Assembly: GCA_020438355.1 (NCBI GenBank) | Contig: JAGQUT010000006.1 | Coordinates: 62,001-126,000 of the forward strand | Reading direction: 5' to 3' | Length of the DNA: 64,000 nucleotides | Source of the DNA: Solirubrobacterales bacterium | Lineage (GTDB): Bacteria > Actinomycetota > Thermoleophilia > Solirubrobacterales > 70-9 | Shown here: one piece after another, positions 29,128-39,356 of the stretch | Numbering within the stretch: the first letter of the stretch is position 1 | Layout of the letters: each line of letters opens with the position of its first letter | Position numbers and translations under genes: made by a program | The notes under the pieces: model-generated | The model's database searches: none | What the model was told of the DNA's origin: nothing | Seen by the model: only the letters and a program-made list of their open reading frames with translations

Positions 29128-30612
29128 TCAGTCGTCGAAGCCGGAGTCGTCGTCTCCAGATCCACCCGAACCCTTGCCGGATCCACCTGAGGAGCCGGAT
29201 CCCGAGGATCCCGACGAGCCGGATGAACCCGAGGAGCCGGATCCGGAGGAGCCGGAAGGGCCTGACGATCCGGAGCTGCCAGAACCGCTGGAGCCGCCGG
29301 AGCTGCCCGATCCCGAGCTGCCTGAAGACCCGGATCCATGCGACCCCCCGCCGGAGCCTGAACCACCCGAGCTGCCTGATGAACCACCTGAGCCGGAGCC
29401 ACCGTGGCCGCTGTGGCCCCCGGAATCGTCACCGCCGAAGTCATCGTCGCGGGGAGGGCGGCCGCTGGGGGTGCTACCGAAATCGTCTCCGCCACCGTGA
29501 CCCGAGTGGTCTTCGCTCCCGCCACGGCTTCCGTGGCCGGAATCGTCGCCGCGCTCAGGCCGGCCCCCATCCGGGGAACTCCCGTCTGAATCGTCCCCGG
29601 AGCCGCTGCCCGAGCGTCCCCGATCATCGTCGCCGAACCTTCCGGAACCGCTCTTGCTGTCGTCATTCCCGGAACCGTGACCAGAACGGTCATCGGCCTT
29701 CTCGCCGTTGTGTTCCGGAGAGCTGTCAGGTTTCGCGCTGCCACCGTCGCGATCTGAATAGCCAGAGGATGTAGCCGCGCCGTCGCCGCCGGTCGCCTCG
29801 TCGGCGATAGCGACCTGTGCTGATGCTTCGGGGACGCCGCGATCGCCGGACCGGTTCTTCTCGACCGCCAGCCCTCCGGCTATCGAACCTCCCGCCACGA
29901 CGGCGACCACCGCGAGCTTGGCGGCACCCCCACCTCCGAGCCCGCCGAGCAGTCCCGTTGCGGTGGCGCCGCCACCGGCGGCGCCGGTCGCGACGACCCC
30001 GGAACCCTCCGCCAGCCAGGCAATCAGGGGCAGTGGGATCATCGCGCCGAAGGCGTTTCTCAGGGAGAGCCGGGCGCGGTATATCAGCTGCTTGGTCGCA
30101 CCGGTGCTGAGTTCCAGCTCTGCGGCGATCTCCTCGTGAGAAAAGCCGCTCAGTTCGTGATCGACCAGGGCCCTTCTCTGGGCTTCGGGCAGATCGGCAA
30201 CCGCAGCCAGCACCGCGGCAAATCTCTCTCGCTGTTCAACCAGCTCATCCGGTGTGCTGCCGGAACCGGCTGAATCTGCGAGATCGGAGTGCCGGTGTTT
30301 GCGGTTGTCCCGGATGTCATTCAGGGCCGTGTTGCGAACGAGCGTGTAAAGCCAGGGGCGAGGGTCGATGTCCCGGTCAGCCCGAAGCGAACGATGTGCC
30401 TTGACCAGGGACTCCTGGACGACGTCCTCGGCCCGGTCCGGGCCGGCAATCGAACCGGCGTAACCGACGAGCGCATCACGGTAGCGCCTGACCAGCTCGT
30501 CGAAGGCAGCTTCGACATCCCGGCGGAACAGCTTCAGAAGGCGTTCATCCGACTGGAGTCGGAGCGTCCCCCGGGCCAGGGCCGGAATCTTTTCCCCGTT
30601 TTCTGCTGCCAT
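29128..30612 (-). CDS. ECF sigma factor fused to membrane anchor and Gly/Ser/Asp/His tail
   Basis: 494 residues. Sigma region 2 is about 24-100 (VRRYRDALVGYAGSIAGPDRA, DVVQESLVKAHRSL, WLYTLVRNTALNDIRD), and region 4 about 133-186 (LPEAQRRALVDHELSGFSHE, LELSTGATKQLIYRARLSL). Then come hydrophobic segments near 190-202 and 230-250 and a 240-residue tail of Gly, Ser, Asp and His with no predicted fold. ATG 30612 has GAGGGGAC just upstream. No separate anti-sigma gene is adjacent, so the anchor and tail may control release. The Ca2+-repeat protein gene follows 82 bases downstream. Confidence 0.87.
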   Translation of the reverse strand: MAAENGEKIPALARGTLRLQSDERLLKLFRRDVEAAFDELVRRYRDALVGYAGSIAGPDRAEDVVQESLVKAHRSLRADRDIDPRPWLYTLVRNTALNDIRDNRKHRHSDLADSAGSGSTPDELVEQRERFAAVLAAVADLPEAQRRALVDHELSGFSHEEIAAELELSTGATKQLIYRARLSLRNAFGAMIPLPLIAWLAEGSGVVATGAAGGGATATGLLGGLGGGGAAKLAVVAVVAGGSIAGGLAVEKNRSGDRGVPEASAQVAIADEATGGDGAATSSGYSDRDGGSAKPDSSPEHNGEKADDRSGHGSGNDDSKSGSGRFGDDDRGRSGSGSGDDSDGSSPDGGRPERGDDSGHGSRGGSEDHSGHGGGDDFGSTPSGRPPRDDDFGGDDSGGHSGHGGSGSGGSSGSSGGSGSGGGSHGSGSSGSSGSGSSGGSSGSGSSGSSGPSGSSGSGSSGSSGSSGSSGSGSSGGSGKGSGGSGDDDSGFDD

Positions 30613-30692
30613 CTGTCCCCTCAGGTTACGCCCATTTCGAGATTCGAAAGGCATGTCGGTACTTCAACCCGAACCGGATGCAGAAGTCACGC

Positions 30693-31651: not shown

Positions 31652-32779
31652 GTGAAAACGAGAGTGCTTGTGCTGGGAGCCGGATTCGGTGGACTTGAAT
31701 TGAGCACGATGCTTGCGGAGGAGTTGGGAGATCAGGTGGAAGTCACCCTGATAGACCGCAACGACTCGTTCGCTTTCGGATATTCGAAGCTGGACATGAT
31801 GTTCAGGGGAGTCAGCCTCGAATCGGTCAGTCTTCCGTATTCGAAGGTGGTCAAACCTGGCGTCACCCTTGTCAGGGAGGAGATTCGTTCGATCGACGCG
31901 GAGTCCAGGAGTGTCGAAACCGATTCGGGGACCCTCGAGGGCGACGTCATGGTGATCGCCCTCGGGGCCGATTACGACCTGGAGGCTACTCCCGGCCTGG
32001 CCGAGCACGGCACCGAGTTCTATTCCTTCGCTGGAGCCCGGGATGCCGCGGGACCGGTCGCGTCCTTCAGCTCCGGCCATGCGGTGGTAGGGGTCTGCGG
32101 AGCGCCTTTCAAATGCCCTCCTGCGCCGAGCGAATGCGCCTTGATGCTGAGCGATGAGCTGACTCGTCGCGGTGTTCGCGGTGACTGCGAGATCACACTC
32201 ACCATGCCTCTTGGTTCGCCGGTTCCGCCCTCGCCTGAAACTTCGGCCGCGCTCATGTCAGAGTTCGAAGCCCGCGGGATCACCTTCCGGGGAGGGCTGC
32301 GCCCGGTCCGGCTCGAACCCGGTCTGGTGATCTACGAGGACGGCACCGAACTCCCCTTCGACCTGTTCCTCGGAATCCCCAAACACCGGGCTCCCGACGT
32401 CGTGATCGACAGTGGCATCACCGAGCATGGATACGTGCCCGTCGAACCCGCGACCCTGAAGACGAAGTTCGAAGGTGTCTACGCGGTGGGCGATGTCGCC
32501 AATGCGGAAGTTCCCAAGGCCGGTGTCTTCGCAGAGGGTGCGGCCCGTGTGGTCGCCAAACGGGTGATCGCCCAGGTAACCGGCGGCGATGCTCCTCCGC
32601 CGTTTGACGGGAAGGCCTCCTGTTACATCGAGTTTGGGGAAGAACGCATCGCCAGGGTCGACATCGACTTCCTTTCCGGTCCCGAGAGGACAGGAGAGTT
32701 CAACGCACCTTCCCAGGAACTTCGTCAGGAAAAGAGTGACTTCGGTTCATCCAGACGGGCCCGCTGGTTCGGTCTCTGA
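31652..32779 (+). CDS. FAD-dependent oxidoreductase, sulfide:quinone-reductase-like
   Basis: 375 residues. The N-terminal FAD loop is VLVLGAGFGGLELSTML, a second nucleotide region follows near VMVIALGAD, and the C-terminal FAD contact is GVYAVGDVANAEVPKAGVFAE. The segment VCGAPFKCPPAPSECA is the Cys-containing pattern of sulfide:quinone reductases and flavocytochrome c sulfide dehydrogenases. The set of redox Cys cannot be confirmed by eye. A quinone-linked reductase role is likely but the donor is unknown. The stop overlaps the next start (TGATG), coupling it to a small membrane protein. Confidence 0.85.
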   Translation: MKTRVLVLGAGFGGLELSTMLAEELGDQVEVTLIDRNDSFAFGYSKLDMMFRGVSLESVSLPYSKVVKPGVTLVREEIRSIDAESRSVETDSGTLEGDVMVIALGADYDLEATPGLAEHGTEFYSFAGARDAAGPVASFSSGHAVVGVCGAPFKCPPAPSECALMLSDELTRRGVRGDCEITLTMPLGSPVPPSPETSAALMSEFEARGITFRGGLRPVRLEPGLVIYEDGTELPFDLFLGIPKHRAPDVVIDSGITEHGYVPVEPATLKTKFEGVYAVGDVANAEVPKAGVFAEGAARVVAKRVIAQVTGGDAPPPFDGKASCYIEFGEERIARVDIDFLSGPERTGEFNAPSQELRQEKSDFGSSRRARWFGL

Positions 32780-33291: not shown

Positions 33292-35211
33292 CTACTGAAC
33301 CCGGAAGGCACCACGCATCAGCGGGTGGATCCGGCAGAAGAAGGTGTAGGTCCCCTTCGGCAGGGTCTTGGGTGTAGACCACTCCGTGTAGCCCACGGTC
33401 GGGGCCAGGCCCGGACCCATCTGGCCTGACTCGAACTGGAACTCGCCGTCCGGAATCGGGTAGGAGATACCGGTCGACTTGTTACACGGCGTCTTGCAGG
33501 AAGTGAGCGAGTGCCAGACCTCGTTCTGGATGTCGTAATCCGAGAGCTTGAAGGTGAATGACTGGCCCTGGTTGACCACCGGGGGACGGCCAAGCGCGCC
33601 CGGCAGCCGGAAGTCGGCTCCGTTGTAAACGTAGTCACTGATCGTGAAGGGGCCACCGCCGAACTGGCCGTCCGGGAGCTTGGTCGGATCGGGTCCGACC
33701 AGTTTCGAGCCGTTCTTGCCGGTCTCGCCGCCGTAGTCCTCGTTTTCCTTCAAATGACCATGGTTGAGAACACCCCTGGTGTCGACCTTGGTCACGTACG
33801 GGTTGGGCGCGGTGGTCGGATCGGGCGGATTCGGGACGTCATCCATTTCGTTATCCCGGGCCCAGTAGACGATGTTAATCCCCATCGACTCGGGCCAGGA
33901 AGCGATCTTCGTCTCGTAGGTCGTCTGTAGCTCCAGCTTGTCCCCGGCCTGCACCCGGACCGTCCAGTCAGGTTCGGTGCTGTACATCGCCATGTCCCAG
34001 GAGATCGGGCCGCGAGGGTCGAAGTACTTCGCTTCCGAGTTGAAAAGGTGGACCCGGTTGCCATCGTCGACCTGGGGCTGGGTGGCCCGGCACGCCGCGT
34101 CCTTCTTGCGCTCCGTGTTGTCCTTCGCCAGGACCTTGTCGAGCTTCGACTTGTTGGTCGCCTTGACGCTGTTGATGCTGGCGATCCTCTTCGAGTTCGC
34201 CTTCTTCTTGCGCTTGATCTTGCTCAACTGCTTCCGGGCGCCCTGATTGTCCGGGTTCTTCCTGACCATCCGGGCGACCTTCTTCTGGGCCCGGGTCAGG
34301 CGACTGTTGCTCTTCTTGAGGCGCTTGATCTTCTTCGAATAGCCAGCCTGCTTCTTCCTCAGGGGCGCAAGCTCGTCCTCGTAGGAGATCCGCTCGGGAC
34401 AGTTCGGCCCCGCGTAAGTGGCTCCGGTCCGGCGCAAATAAAGGTTGGTAGAAAGTCCGCCGGTGTGGACGTGGCCGGTGGTGTGGAGGAGGACACCGTC
34501 CTGGGGGATGGTCTTGACGTTCTTCTGGACCCCGGGCGGGTAAGCATTCGGTGCGTCCTCCGGATAGGTGAACTCGCCGTCTGCTCCACCGCTGTCGCGC
34601 CAGACATCGAAGACCGGGTAGATGCCGCTCTGAACGTCCATCCAGATCGGCCGCGCCCTCACGATGTCCTGTGCTTCCGGAGCAGTATCAGGGATGAAGT
34701 CGAGCGTGTACTCGAAGTAGAGGACCATCGCCTGCGGGGTCAGGTTGTGGATCATGTCGTTGAGGATCCAGCCGTGATTGGTCTGGTACCTGTAGCCGTA
34801 CCCGTCGGGCAGATCTAGGATGGTCTTCTCCTCGCCGGTGGCGTAGAAGAGGTCGCCGGTCGTCTGGTTGTTCCAGACTCCGTGATGGAACATGACCTTG
34901 CTCGATTCTGGGATGGTCCCGTCTTCGTAAACGAGGTCAGGCTTGATCCGGGTGATCCACCCGTTCACACCCGGGCGGGAAGCGCCGGTAATCGGGCGGA
35001 AGGCGATCCTGTTCTGGCCCGGAGTGACCTGGACTGGCCCGAGGCGGTAGGTGGTCCGCTGGGCTCCGTTAGGCAGCGCCTCGGTGTAGACGACCTGGGC
35101 ACTTGCCGATGAGGTTACGTACATCGATGCCAGCAGAGCGGCAACCAGGACGACTCCCGAAACAAGCGCGCCCAAGCGCGAATCTGTAACTGCGGTCCTG
35201 CCGGTTCCCAT
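33292..35211 (-). CDS. Secreted PHM-like copper monooxygenase fused to a type 1 copper domain (paralog A)
   Basis: 639 residues; signal peptide about 1-38. The first half matches the peptidylglycine alpha-hydroxylating monooxygenase (PHM) fold. H109-H110 (VMFHHGVW) and H155 (NDMIHNLT) fit the CuH site. H247 and H249 (GHVHTGG) and M443 (WPESMGINIVYW) fit the CuM site. LPDGYGYRY and the VQAGDKLELQTTYET strand also align. A Lys/Arg-rich insertion spans about 285-372. The C-terminal cupredoxin (about 525-639) has H567, C626, H629 and M632, a full type 1 site of the C-x2-H-x2-M kind. ATG 35211 follows GGGAG by seven bases. It could hydroxylate an extracellular substrate with electrons passed through the blue-copper domain. 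The PHM match is by eye. Confidence 0.82.
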   Translation of the reverse strand: MGTGRTAVTDSRLGALVSGVVLVAALLASMYVTSSASAQVVYTEALPNGAQRTTYRLGPVQVTPGQNRIAFRPITGASRPGVNGWITRIKPDLVYEDGTIPESSKVMFHHGVWNNQTTGDLFYATGEEKTILDLPDGYGYRYQTNHGWILNDMIHNLTPQAMVLYFEYTLDFIPDTAPEAQDIVRARPIWMDVQSGIYPVFDVWRDSGGADGEFTYPEDAPNAYPPGVQKNVKTIPQDGVLLHTTGHVHTGGLSTNLYLRRTGATYAGPNCPERISYEDELAPLRKKQAGYSKKIKRLKKSNSRLTRAQKKVARMVRKNPDNQGARKQLSKIKRKKKANSKRIASINSVKATNKSKLDKVLAKDNTERKKDAACRATQPQVDDGNRVHLFNSEAKYFDPRGPISWDMAMYSTEPDWTVRVQAGDKLELQTTYETKIASWPESMGINIVYWARDNEMDDVPNPPDPTTAPNPYVTKVDTRGVLNHGHLKENEDYGGETGKNGSKLVGPDPTKLPDGQFGGGPFTISDYVYNGADFRLPGALGRPPVVNQGQSFTFKLSDYDIQNEVWHSLTSCKTPCNKSTGISYPIPDGEFQFESGQMGPGLAPTVGYTEWSTPKTLPKGTYTFFCRIHPLMRGAFRVQ

Positions 35212-35299
35212 CAGAATCTCCCGTCCCCTCGAATAACGACAGTACAAAAGGTACCCCACATCCCGGAAACCGGCCGGTTGAACCCGGTCGGAAGCCGAT

Positions 35300-36871
35300 T
35301 TACCAGGTGTCGACGAAGCGATGGGCGGAAGGTTCCCCTGTCCGCTCGGGCGCCGCTTCCAGCGTGCTCGCAATTACTTGCCGGGTCTCGGCAGGGTCGA
35401 TCACGTCGTCGATCTCGAAGAGTTGCGCCGCGTTCATCGCCCTCGCGTTCTGCTCTGCCATGGCGGTCATTTCACGCACCCGCCGTTCACGTTCCTCTTC
35501 GTCCTCGATCGCCTCGAGGTCCTTCCTCATCGCCAGACGCACCGCTCCTTCGAGACCCATCGGCCCGAGGTGAGCGGCCGGCCAGGCCACGGTGAGAAGC
35601 GGTTCCCAGAGGCTGCCGCCGACCATCGCCTGGGCGCCGAGCCCATAGGCCCGTCGAATCACGACCGAAATCAGGGGAACAGTCAGTGCGGCGCCCGCAA
35701 CGAGCAGGCGCGATGTGTGCCTGACCAGAGCCGTTTTCTCGTACTCGGGTCCGACCATGAAACCGGGAGTGTCCACCAGGGAGATCACCGGCAGGCCGAA
35801 GGTCTCGCAGAGCTGAAGGAAACGGGCCGCCTTGTCGGCGGAGTCGCTGGTGATCGTGCCCGCCATGTGACGGGAGTCGTTGGCGATGATGCCGACCGGC
35901 CGCCCCTCGATGCGGGCCAGTGCAGTGACCATCTCGGGGGCAAACTTCTCCCGGAGGATCGTGACCGACCCGGGATCGGCCACCGAGTCGATGACCGGTC
36001 GCACATCAAAGGCCCGCCGCTCACGCTCCGGCACCATCTCCCGGAGGGGCTTCTGGTCCGGCTCATCTCCGCTCCAGTCGAGGCGGCCCTGGAAGTAGCC
36101 GATCAGCTTCTTGGCCGCCTCGACCGCTTCCGCCTCGTCGGCGACCACGATGTCGAGTACTCCGTTCGGCTCCTGAACGGAAACCGGCCCCACGTCATCC
36201 GGTTCGACGTCACCGAGGCCGCCACCGGCAATCATCGCCGGACCTCCCATGCCCAGCGATGAATCCTCGGTGGCGACGATCAGGTCCGCGCAGCCGGCGA
36301 TGACCGCGTTGCCGGCGAAACACCGGCCCTTGACGATTGCGACCCGTGGTACGACGCCGGAGAGCTTCGCCCACAGCGCGAAAGCGCGGACCTGGAGGGC
36401 GGAAACAACCGGGAAGTCGGTATCTCCGGGCCGTCCGCCGCCTCCCTCGGCGAAGAAGATCGTCGGCAGCTTCATCTTCTCGATCAGCTCGAACAGGCGG
36501 TCCTTCTTCAGGTGGCCGATCGCGCCCTGGGTGCCGGCCAGGACGGTGTAGTCATAGGAGAGCACCGCGCAGCGGGCGTCATCTCCGAACAGGGTGCCAT
36601 TGACGCTGGCCGTTCCGGCGATCAGGCCGTCACCGGGGGTACGGCTGATCAGGTCATCGGTGTCGAACCTCGCTCGCTGGGCGGCGATCGCATGACGGCC
36701 GTACTCGACAAAACTTCCCGGATCGACCAGGTCGTCGAGGTTCTCCCTGGCGGTCCGACCGCCCCTTAGGTGCCGCTTTGCCACGGCTTCCGGGCGGCCC
36801 TCATCAAGTGTGAGTTCGCGGCGACGCCGCAACTCGGCCAGGTCCGGTCTGTCTTCAGGGGTATGCGACAT
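35300..36871 (-). CDS. Biotin-dependent acyl-CoA carboxylase, carboxyltransferase subunit
   Basis: 523 residues with both halves of the crotonase-like carboxyltransferase fold. The N-terminal half has the oxyanion loop FFAEGGGGRPGD, AGNAVIAGCADLIVATEDS and a CoA-binding region. The C-terminal half has PVISLVDTPGFMVG and IRRAYGLGAQAMVGG. It is expected to transfer carboxyl from biotin to an acyl-CoA such as propionyl-, methylcrotonyl- or geranyl-CoA. No biotin carboxylase or BCCP gene lies in the window. It interrupts the copper island, on the minus strand between the two PHM-like paralogs. Confidence 0.9.
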   Translation of the reverse strand: MSHTPEDRPDLAELRRRRELTLDEGRPEAVAKRHLRGGRTARENLDDLVDPGSFVEYGRHAIAAQRARFDTDDLISRTPGDGLIAGTASVNGTLFGDDARCAVLSYDYTVLAGTQGAIGHLKKDRLFELIEKMKLPTIFFAEGGGGRPGDTDFPVVSALQVRAFALWAKLSGVVPRVAIVKGRCFAGNAVIAGCADLIVATEDSSLGMGGPAMIAGGGLGDVEPDDVGPVSVQEPNGVLDIVVADEAEAVEAAKKLIGYFQGRLDWSGDEPDQKPLREMVPERERRAFDVRPVIDSVADPGSVTILREKFAPEMVTALARIEGRPVGIIANDSRHMAGTITSDSADKAARFLQLCETFGLPVISLVDTPGFMVGPEYEKTALVRHTSRLLVAGAALTVPLISVVIRRAYGLGAQAMVGGSLWEPLLTVAWPAAHLGPMGLEGAVRLAMRKDLEAIEDEEERERRVREMTAMAEQNARAMNAAQLFEIDDVIDPAETRQVIASTLEAAPERTGEPSAHRFVDTW

Positions 36872-36998
36872 TCGCGAAACCTGTCACATCGGCCAACGGA
36901 ACGCGTCCCCGAAGCCGTTCTGCGGAGAGACATTCCCGGCATTCGTTGCGGGCAGAGTTGATATGCGTCATGATGTCCGCCTGATGGGAGGGACTGGA

Positions 36999-37676
36999 AT
37001 GAGAATTGCACTGGGGATTCTGGCTGCGCTGGCGTCCTTCGGACTGATCGCATCATCGGCAAACGCCGGCGCGACGATCCAGTCGGATCCGAATGCCTAC
37101 GACTACCTGCCGGGACCGTTCGTACAGGACCTGGGTGAGACCGCGACCTTCGACAACTCGCAGTCGTCGGCGCTTCATGACGTGAAAGCGACAGGCAGGG
37201 GGCCCGACGGTGGTCCGCTCTTCTACTCGAATTTGATCCCCGGTGGGCAGACCACACCGGTGAAGGGCACCGAGTATCTCGCTGCCGGCACCTACCCGTT
37301 TTTCTGCACCATCCACGGATCCGCGATGAGCGGTGAGCTCGTCATTGACGGTTCGAAGGGAACGATCGTGTCGCGGCCTTCGGTAAAGGCCATAATCCTG
37401 AACCAGCGCCTGAAGAAGGTCCGGAAGTCCGGTGTTCGGGTCAAGGTCACGGCAAAGACGGCCAGCAGCAGGGTCGCGGTGGCAGCCCGCAAGGGTGGCG
37501 CACTTCTCGGTATCAAGCGTGGTCTCAACTTCACCGCCGGACAAAGCCGCACCCTGACCATTCCCCTGACAAAGGCCGGCAGGAAGGCAATCAGCAAGGG
37601 CAAGGTAGTCAAGATCTCAGTCAAGGCAACTGTCGAGTTCGGCAAGCCTTCGACCGCAAACCGAAAGGTCCGCTAG
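36999..37676 (+). CDS. Secreted plastocyanin-like type 1 copper protein
   Basis: 225 residues; signal peptide about 1-23 (ending SSANAG). The cupredoxin domain has H60 (ALHDVK) and C103, H106 and M110 (FFCTIHGSAM), a complete type 1 site. After about 125 comes a Lys/Arg-rich beta region of 100 residues (VRVKVTAKTASSRVAVAARK), possibly for wall binding. ATG 36999 is chosen because GGGAGGG ends six bases before it. The stop TAG is followed directly by the ATG of PHM-like paralog B, so they form an operon and this protein may bring electrons or copper to it. Confidence 0.88.
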   Translation: MRIALGILAALASFGLIASSANAGATIQSDPNAYDYLPGPFVQDLGETATFDNSQSSALHDVKATGRGPDGGPLFYSNLIPGGQTTPVKGTEYLAAGTYPFFCTIHGSAMSGELVIDGSKGTIVSRPSVKAIILNQRLKKVRKSGVRVKVTAKTASSRVAVAARKGGALLGIKRGLNFTAGQSRTLTIPLTKAGRKAISKGKVVKISVKATVEFGKPSTANRKVR

Positions 37677-39356
37677 ATGAACTCCCGCCGCATCGCGGCC
37701 GTACTGGTCGCCCTTGCGGCGGTCCTCGTCCTTCCCCAGTCAGCCTCGGCACTCCTGCCGAAGACCTCCGTCACCTATCTCGACAACGGTGTCGAGAGAA
37801 CGACCTACCGGATCGGTCCGCTTAACGTGACGCCCGGCCAGAACCGGATTGCCTTCAGGCCGGTCTCCGGACTCGAGAAGCCCGGCGAGGACGGCTGGAT
37901 TACCCGCCTGAAGCCGGACCTGGTCGAGGAGGACGGCTCGATCCCGCTTTCGAGCAAGGTGATGTTCCACCACGGGGTCTGGCTCAACTTCTCCCGGACC
38001 GATGCTACCTCAGGTGGCCAGGAGCGTTTCTATGCGACCGGGGAGGAAAAGACGATCACCTCCTTCCCCAAGGGTTACGGCTACGAGTACAAGGCCTCTG
38101 ATGTGTGGGTCCTGAACCACATGATCCACAACCTGACCCCCGAGGCGATGACGCTCTACGCGACCTACACAGTCGATTTCATCCCGGCCGACTCCCCGGC
38201 GGCGGAATCGATGAAGCCGGTCACCCCGATCTGGATGGATGTCGACAACGGCAGCCTCTATCCGGTCTTCGACGTCTGGCGCGACAGCGGTGGAAAGGAC
38301 GGCAAGTTCACCTTCCCCGATGATGCCGACAACCCTTATCCCTCCGGTGAAGCGAAGAACCGCTGGACAGTCGACCGGGACGGAGTACTGCTGGCAACGG
38401 CCGGGCACGTTCACACCGGCGGTCTGTACACCGATCTCTACCTCCAGCGACCGGGGGCGAAGTACTCGGGCCCGACCTGCCCGAAGGTCAAGACTCCGAA
38501 GCTCAGGAAGCTCAAGGGCTTGAGCGGCAAGGCCAGACAGCGCGCTGCCAGGGCAAACGCCAAGGCCCGCCAGAAGTACAAGGCGCAGGTCCGGAAGCGG
38601 GATGCCTGCCTCGAGACAAAGCCGAGCGTGAAGGGAAGCAAGGTGCACCTCTTCCGTTCCAGGGCCAAGTACTACGAGCCGGCCGGGCCGGTTTCCTGGG
38701 ACATGGCGATGTACGGAACCCCCGAGGACTGGAAGGTGGAAGTCAAGGAGGGGGACGTGCTCTCGACGACGGCCACCTATGAGACGAAGCTCGCCTCGTG
38801 GCCCGAGTCGATGGGGATCATGGTCGTCTACATGGCCGAGAACGAGAAGGGCAACAACCCTTACCGCAAGCGGGTCAACTTCAAGGGCACCGTAAATCAC
38901 GGCCCCTACAAGGAAAACCGGGATCACGGTGGGGGACTGCCGCTGGTCGGCCCCGACCCGACGAAGCTACCCGACGGTGCTGCCGGTGATGACAACCCCC
39001 TGATCATCAGCGATTTCGTCTACAACGGAGCGGACTTCCGCCTGCCCGGAGCGCTCGGTCGCCCGCCGGTGGTCAAGGAAGGGAAAAGCCTGACCTTCAA
39101 GATCTCCGATTCGGACGTGAGCCAGGAGATGTGGCATTCCCTGACCTCCTGCAAGACCCCCTGTAACCGGTCGACCGGTATCGCTTACCCGATCGCCGAT
39201 GGCGAGTTCCAGTTCGAGTCAGGCCAGATGGGTGTAGGGGGAGCGCCGACCGTCGAACGCACCACCTGGAAGACGCCGGCCTCGCTGCCGAGAGGCACCT
39301 ACACCTTCTTCTGCCGGGTCCACCCGCTGATGCGCGGCGCTTTCAGGGTCAAGTAG
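37677..39356 (+). CDS. Secreted PHM-like copper monooxygenase fused to a type 1 copper domain (paralog B)
   Basis: 559 residues; signal peptide about 1-25. It keeps every proposed copper ligand of paralog A: H98-H99, H151, H244 and H246, M379, and in the cupredoxin H487, C546, H549 and M552. The basic insertion between the two CuM elements is shorter (about 272-310). The flanking blocks SKVMFHHGVW, AGHVHTGGL, SWDMAMYGTPEDW, ASWPESMGI and FFCRVHPLMRGAFRV are nearly unchanged between the two, so both are under selection. Translation begins the base after the plastocyanin stop. The last eight bases overlap the end of the convergent ThpR gene. Confidence 0.83.
   Translation: MNSRRIAAVLVALAAVLVLPQSASALLPKTSVTYLDNGVERTTYRIGPLNVTPGQNRIAFRPVSGLEKPGEDGWITRLKPDLVEEDGSIPLSSKVMFHHGVWLNFSRTDATSGGQERFYATGEEKTITSFPKGYGYEYKASDVWVLNHMIHNLTPEAMTLYATYTVDFIPADSPAAESMKPVTPIWMDVDNGSLYPVFDVWRDSGGKDGKFTFPDDADNPYPSGEAKNRWTVDRDGVLLATAGHVHTGGLYTDLYLQRPGAKYSGPTCPKVKTPKLRKLKGLSGKARQRAARANAKARQKYKAQVRKRDACLETKPSVKGSKVHLFRSRAKYYEPAGPVSWDMAMYGTPEDWKVEVKEGDVLSTTATYETKLASWPESMGIMVVYMAENEKGNNPYRKRVNFKGTVNHGPYKENRDHGGGLPLVGPDPTKLPDGAAGDDNPLIISDFVYNGADFRLPGALGRPPVVKEGKSLTFKISDSDVSQEMWHSLTSCKTPCNRSTGIAYPIADGEFQFESGQMGVGGAPTVERTTWKTPASLPRGTYTFFCRVHPLMRGAFRVK

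Follow-up and report, generated by a model that had tools for sequence, protein, structure and literature searches.

PHM and DBM are the textbook copper monooxygenases of animal hormone and adrenaline synthesis. They consume two electrons per turnover, which enter at the CuH site and usually come from ascorbate, and the path from there to the CuM site is much debated. SURNod19 (PF07712), a plant stress protein family, has members in plants and fungi. The function of SURNod19 proteins has been described as currently unknown (PMC9632046). Here we analyse a 64,000-nt stretch of DNA from a Solirubrobacterales bacterium (assembly GCA_020438355.1, contig JAGQUT010000006.1, positions 62,001 to 126,000; hereafter the window), in which two genes, paralogs A and B, encode proteins with a predicted PHM-type N-terminal half followed by a cupredoxin domain. 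The PHM fold and the cupredoxin are known kinds of domain; their fusion, the cupredoxin gene adjoining B and the link between PHM and SURNod19 were not found in the literature searched, which left most subscription journals (and, for the SURNod19 link, InterPro clan assignments) outside its scope.

Paralog A lies on the minus strand (33292-35211; 639 residues) and paralog B on the plus strand (37677-39356; 559 residues), and the two proteins are 62% identical. The listed frame of A opens at a TTG codon at 35373, where it overlaps a carboxyltransferase gene, and the true start is likely the ATG at 35211; B starts at the ATG at 37677. By inspection, both proteins begin with signal-like leaders ending in AxA. 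With moderate confidence, we read both proteins as exported dicopper monooxygenases that have the PHM/DBM fold, belong to the SURNod19 lineage, carry a permanent type 1 copper domain and perform cupredoxin-fed, O2-dependent C-H hydroxylation.

The fold of the N-terminal half was assessed with AlphaFold models of B (predicted local distance difference test score 83, predicted template modelling score 0.83) and A (77 and 0.71), both of which were compared with solved structures using Foldseek and VIA-align. For B, the best 14 Foldseek matches were all PHM or DBH structures (E-values 2e-8 to 5e-6). VIA-align ranked PHM (6ala) first, with a Z-score of 17.1 and a root mean square deviation (rmsd) of 3.4 over 239 residues, followed by DBH (4zel; Z 16.9) and then, after a gap, by PNGase F (Z 8.8), itself a member of the PHM fold superfamily. 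With the model of A, a long helical insert dominated the Foldseek matches; VIA-align recovered PHM, again with 6ala first (Z 15.4, rmsd 3.5 over 231 residues). The PHM-like N-terminal half of the original prediction is thus borne out by both models, each of which adopts the PHM-type two-domain beta fold. The predicted PHM-fold regions span 33835-35106 (minus strand) in A, where the 6ala match covers model residues 9-426, and 37764-38846 (plus strand) in B, and conserved ligands support the assignment in A.

Sequence comparison gave a fainter signal of the same relationship. A search of the PDB with B alone returned nothing, and a 22-sequence family profile found the cupredoxin half only. A single PHM sequence did not match the family profile significantly (E-value 0.07). 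When the family profile was instead compared with a set of PHM sequences, the E-value was 3.4e-4 (reversed control, 0.39), and the HH motif, the LPxGxG turn and the HxH motif were all in register.

Both proteins had been predicted to keep the six ligands of PHM-type copper sites, and every residue was numbered correctly. Counted from ATG 35211, A carries H109, H110 and H155 for CuH and H247, H249 and M443 for CuM; counted from ATG 37677, B carries H98, H99 and H151 for CuH and H244, H246 and M379 for CuM. Each protein therefore has three His for the first site, and two His and one Met for the second. Conservation was assessed in an alignment of 40 relatives, the remotest of which are ~26-30% identical to B. 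Five of the six ligands (H98, H99, H244, H246 and M379 in B numbering) are invariant, so that the CuM set is complete in 40/40, and the cupredoxin residue H487 is likewise present in all 40 sequences. Apart from these ligands and the cupredoxin residues C546 and H549, no His or Cys column in this alignment is conserved at 90% or above. Judged from these sequences, conservation of the ligand set is far beyond chance.

The C-terminal part of each protein resembles a type 1 copper domain. In A (33295-33657, minus strand; ligands H567, C626, H629 and M632), model residues 486-606 matched purple cupredoxin (5fc9) with a VIA-align Z-score of 8.8, and the ligands are conserved. In B, an amicyanin-type cupredoxin (38988-39353, plus strand; H487, C546, H549 and M552) makes up the C-terminal 120 residues, which matched amicyanin and purple cupredoxin with Z-scores of 8.2 to 8.8 (8.2-8.4 for amicyanin, rmsd ~2.2 over 85 residues) and in the structure search also resembled plastocyanin. 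A Z-score of ~8 is weak alone, and the cupredoxin call is not drawn from it alone: the sequence profile finds the same half, matching amicyanin with an E-value of 1e-6 and aligning residue by residue, including amicyanin C92, H95 and M98. The CxxHxxM spacing of the ligand loop is that of amicyanin, and fold and loop are shared with purple cupredoxin as well. Unlike amicyanin, these domains are fused to an enzyme, and between their first His and the Cys ligand an insert of ~30 residues contributes two conserved Cys. Fold, profile and conservation agree on a C-terminal cupredoxin with His, Cys, His and Met in both proteins, as originally proposed. Across the family, the first His is present in 40/40 and the Cys and second His (C546 and H549) in all 39 sequences that reach them, one of the 40 being truncated, whereas the Met stands at its column in only 32/40 and lies one residue later in distant members.

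We then related the N-terminal half to SURNod19. Both proteins fall below the PF07712 gathering cut-off of 25 (A scores 11.1 bits and B has no score). A distant relative in the same genome (G000:C111) is above the cut-off for SURNod19 and for Copper-bind, and further PF07712-passing relatives occur across the class and in other actinobacteria. In a profile-profile comparison of the N-terminal domain, the PF07712-type bacterial set matched the A/B group with 100% probability (E-value 6e-44, 335 columns), showing homology over the full length of the domain. The SURNod19-type bacterial proteins keep all six PHM ligands without exception, and one of them is a lone-domain protein that has no cupredoxin. 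To see which residues the Pfam profile favours, single alanine swaps were made in two unrelated bacterial members and rescored against PF07712. The loss was 3.7 to 5.3 bits for the Met and for each of the four His in the HH and HxH motifs, against 0.2 to 0.4 bits for control His, with one exception of 3.3 near the Met motif. The swaps covered five ligands, the stretch around the third CuH His being unaligned in the profile. The PF07712 profile thus favours the same five copper ligands, a preference that may not reflect the plant sequences.

Plant data point in the same direction. In bean, Nod19 has been validated as a target of miR398, and its expression falls in copper deficiency and rises in copper excess, except in leaves (PMC3882225), as would be expected of a copper protein. 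Plant NOD19, as described in PMC10326430, has a signal peptide ahead of the SURNod19 domain and ends in a hydrophobic helix; unlike A and B, it has no cupredoxin. Homology to the A/B family, a profile preference for the same five ligands and the response of plant Nod19 to copper together make it probable that SURNod19 is a dicopper family with the PHM fold, which gives these proteins a concrete functional hypothesis. A PHM-fold enzyme in land plants would be unexpected, because PAM is reported to be missing from all of them (PMC6529398). We consider the chances evenly balanced for a broader proposal: all SURNod19 proteins, whether from plants, fungi or bacteria, would form a branch of the PHM/DBM-type dicopper monooxygenases that has gone unrecognised, the bacteria would have swapped ascorbate for a fused blue copper, and the miR398 and copper regulation of plant Nod19 would be explained by its being a copper enzyme.

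A candidate electron donor is encoded next to B. The gene for a small secreted cupredoxin, which we call cupS (36999-37676, plus strand), has a stop codon that directly abuts the start codon of B. Its product has a weak Copper-bind/Cupredoxin_1 match and contains CxxHxxxM. The named relatives of this actinobacterial genome are Solirubrobacterales and Thermoleophilia metagenome assemblies. In the related loci L001-L004, L006 and L009-L013, cupS is retained beside B. Because cupS abuts B and stays beside it in relatives, the redox partner of B is probably encoded locally, as the cupS product. We infer that the sites are occupied by copper, that electrons flow inwards and that the chemistry is that of a monooxygenase. 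The fused type 1 copper would be reduced by a donor in the periplasm or outside the cell, which in the case of B is most likely the cupS product, and would pass electrons to CuH (in B, H98, H99 and H151) and on to CuM (H244, H246 and M379); O2 would be activated at CuM and would hydroxylate a C-H bond of a small substrate. Protein electron transfer would in this way take the place of ascorbate. Such a protein relay is the simplest reading of the sequences, given the type 1 copper domain built into the enzyme and the cupredoxin gene next to B; the latter also strengthens the idea in the original prediction that the fused blue copper could act as a built-in electron entry. A natural blue-copper fusion with an adjoining cupredoxin would offer a spectroscopically visible electron entry with which to approach the CuH-to-CuM question.

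An unlikely alternative is that the PHM-fold half uses electrons from the type 1 copper to reduce O2, peroxide or nitrite in oxidative or nitrosative defence, with no organic hydroxylation. Solved structures of a NirK (6hbe) and a multicopper oxidase (9cck) provide precedents for a copper enzyme with the same C-terminal tethered cupredoxin arrangement, which serve the favoured reading as well, and both oxidative stress and copper stress induce Nod19 in plants (PMC3882225). However, the catalytic part of these two enzymes is not PHM-like, the best fold match of A and B is PHM rather than a cupredoxin-repeat nitrite reductase, and CuH and CuM have the ligands of a monooxygenase. About as unlikely is a reverse flow through the same architecture, with substrate oxidation at the PHM-fold sites and electrons leaving by way of the type 1 copper for the small cupredoxin and the respiratory chain. 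The domain does resemble amicyanin, which in its own pathway is an acceptor, taking electrons from methylamine dehydrogenase, and the adjacent cupredoxin could serve as the next acceptor; PHM/DBM chemistry, however, uses up electrons. A need for electron input also fits cytochrome-fused PHM-like relatives from the same phylum (loci L064-L066), in which an N-terminal CxxCH cytochrome c-like stretch precedes the PHM core (L064:908-2713, L065:1462-3267 and L066:1480-3219; Pfam scores below cut-off). These proteins belong to a separate PHM branch, and with an N-terminal c-type cytochrome in place of a C-terminal cupredoxin they join a redox domain to a PHM core in a second form. In L065, the same open frame further encodes a YceI domain. 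Slightly less probable is non-catalytic copper storage, delivery or sensing on a PHM-like fold: three predicted copper sites in an exported protein and bean SURNod19 expression that tracks copper status (PMC3882225) would suit it, but a strictly kept, full CuM site with Met, together with type 1 ligands, exceeds what storage needs, and blue copper sites usually serve in electron transfer.

Several observations weigh against an electron-fed monooxygenase. A and B share both ligand sets (HH + H and HxH + M) and the two-domain beta fold with PHM and DBH, but differ from them in their helical insert and C-terminal cupredoxin, their identity to PHM is only ~12-14%, and the Pfam PHM models PF01082 and PF03712 gave no match to either protein. 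The third CuH His, also among the predicted ligands, holds its own column (H151) in 33/40 relatives; in the other 7/40, which are distant members, it is shifted by two residues ('MNH'), so that this part of the prediction stands for most of the family. The substrate-binding residues R240, N316 and Y318 of PHM are not conserved, the equivalent columns holding A/T/V, I/L and V/I/P when the register is set from the HxH and Met motifs. Because these residues lack equivalents, peptidylglycine appears an unlikely substrate, and peptide amidation an unlikely function. The neighbouring genes gave no clue to the substrate, and no shared metabolic partner was found in the neighbourhoods of distant relatives.

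The fusion extends well beyond this locus. In a search of 299 genomes of the same class with 22 family members, matches were found in 109, many to the cupredoxin only, and by our count more than 50 genomes encode a near full-length protein. The PHM-fold/cupredoxin fusion is old and widespread in Actinomycetota rather than a local pair. A and B form separate clades whose split predates the divergence of the sampled near relatives, and several of these have the four genes in the same order (B, small cupredoxin, carboxyltransferase, A); the description of the two proteins as paired is well founded in this sense. Some relatives have a third tandem paralog adjoining A (L001:8585-10303 and L003:8185-9873). 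In the genome of the window itself, a second SURNod19 and cupredoxin gene (L047; G000:C100:55248-56519) contains one in-frame TAG and is either a pseudogene or an assembly error. A plasmid search with a SURNod19-type protein returned lone cupredoxins only, and no relatives were found in the viral contigs searched.

The insert that obscured the Foldseek search of A is Lys/Arg-rich (34084-34380, minus strand) and is modelled as two long helices at residues 245-343, between the HxH and the Met of CuM. Its counterpart in B is short (38526-38612, plus strand), a helix at model residues 259-287. These Lys/Arg-rich inserts are very unequal in length and split the CuM site in sequence; in the alignment, the insert of A is missing from relatives of the L014-L016 type, and most distant relatives lack such an insert.

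Between A and B lie a gene for an acyl-CoA carboxylase carboxyltransferase subunit (35300-36871, minus strand; PF01039), upstream of A on the same strand, and then cupS, directly before B. The carboxyltransferase gene is a syntenic neighbour of A and B, in conserved order. Further away, the window encodes an extracytoplasmic function (ECF)-type sigma factor (29128-30654) whose low-complexity tail of Gly, Ser and Asp is very long. A gene of the flavin adenine dinucleotide (FAD)-dependent pyridine nucleotide-disulphide oxidoreductase family (31652-32779), which is near A in relatives too, encodes a product that weakly resembles flavocytochrome c sulfide dehydrogenase.
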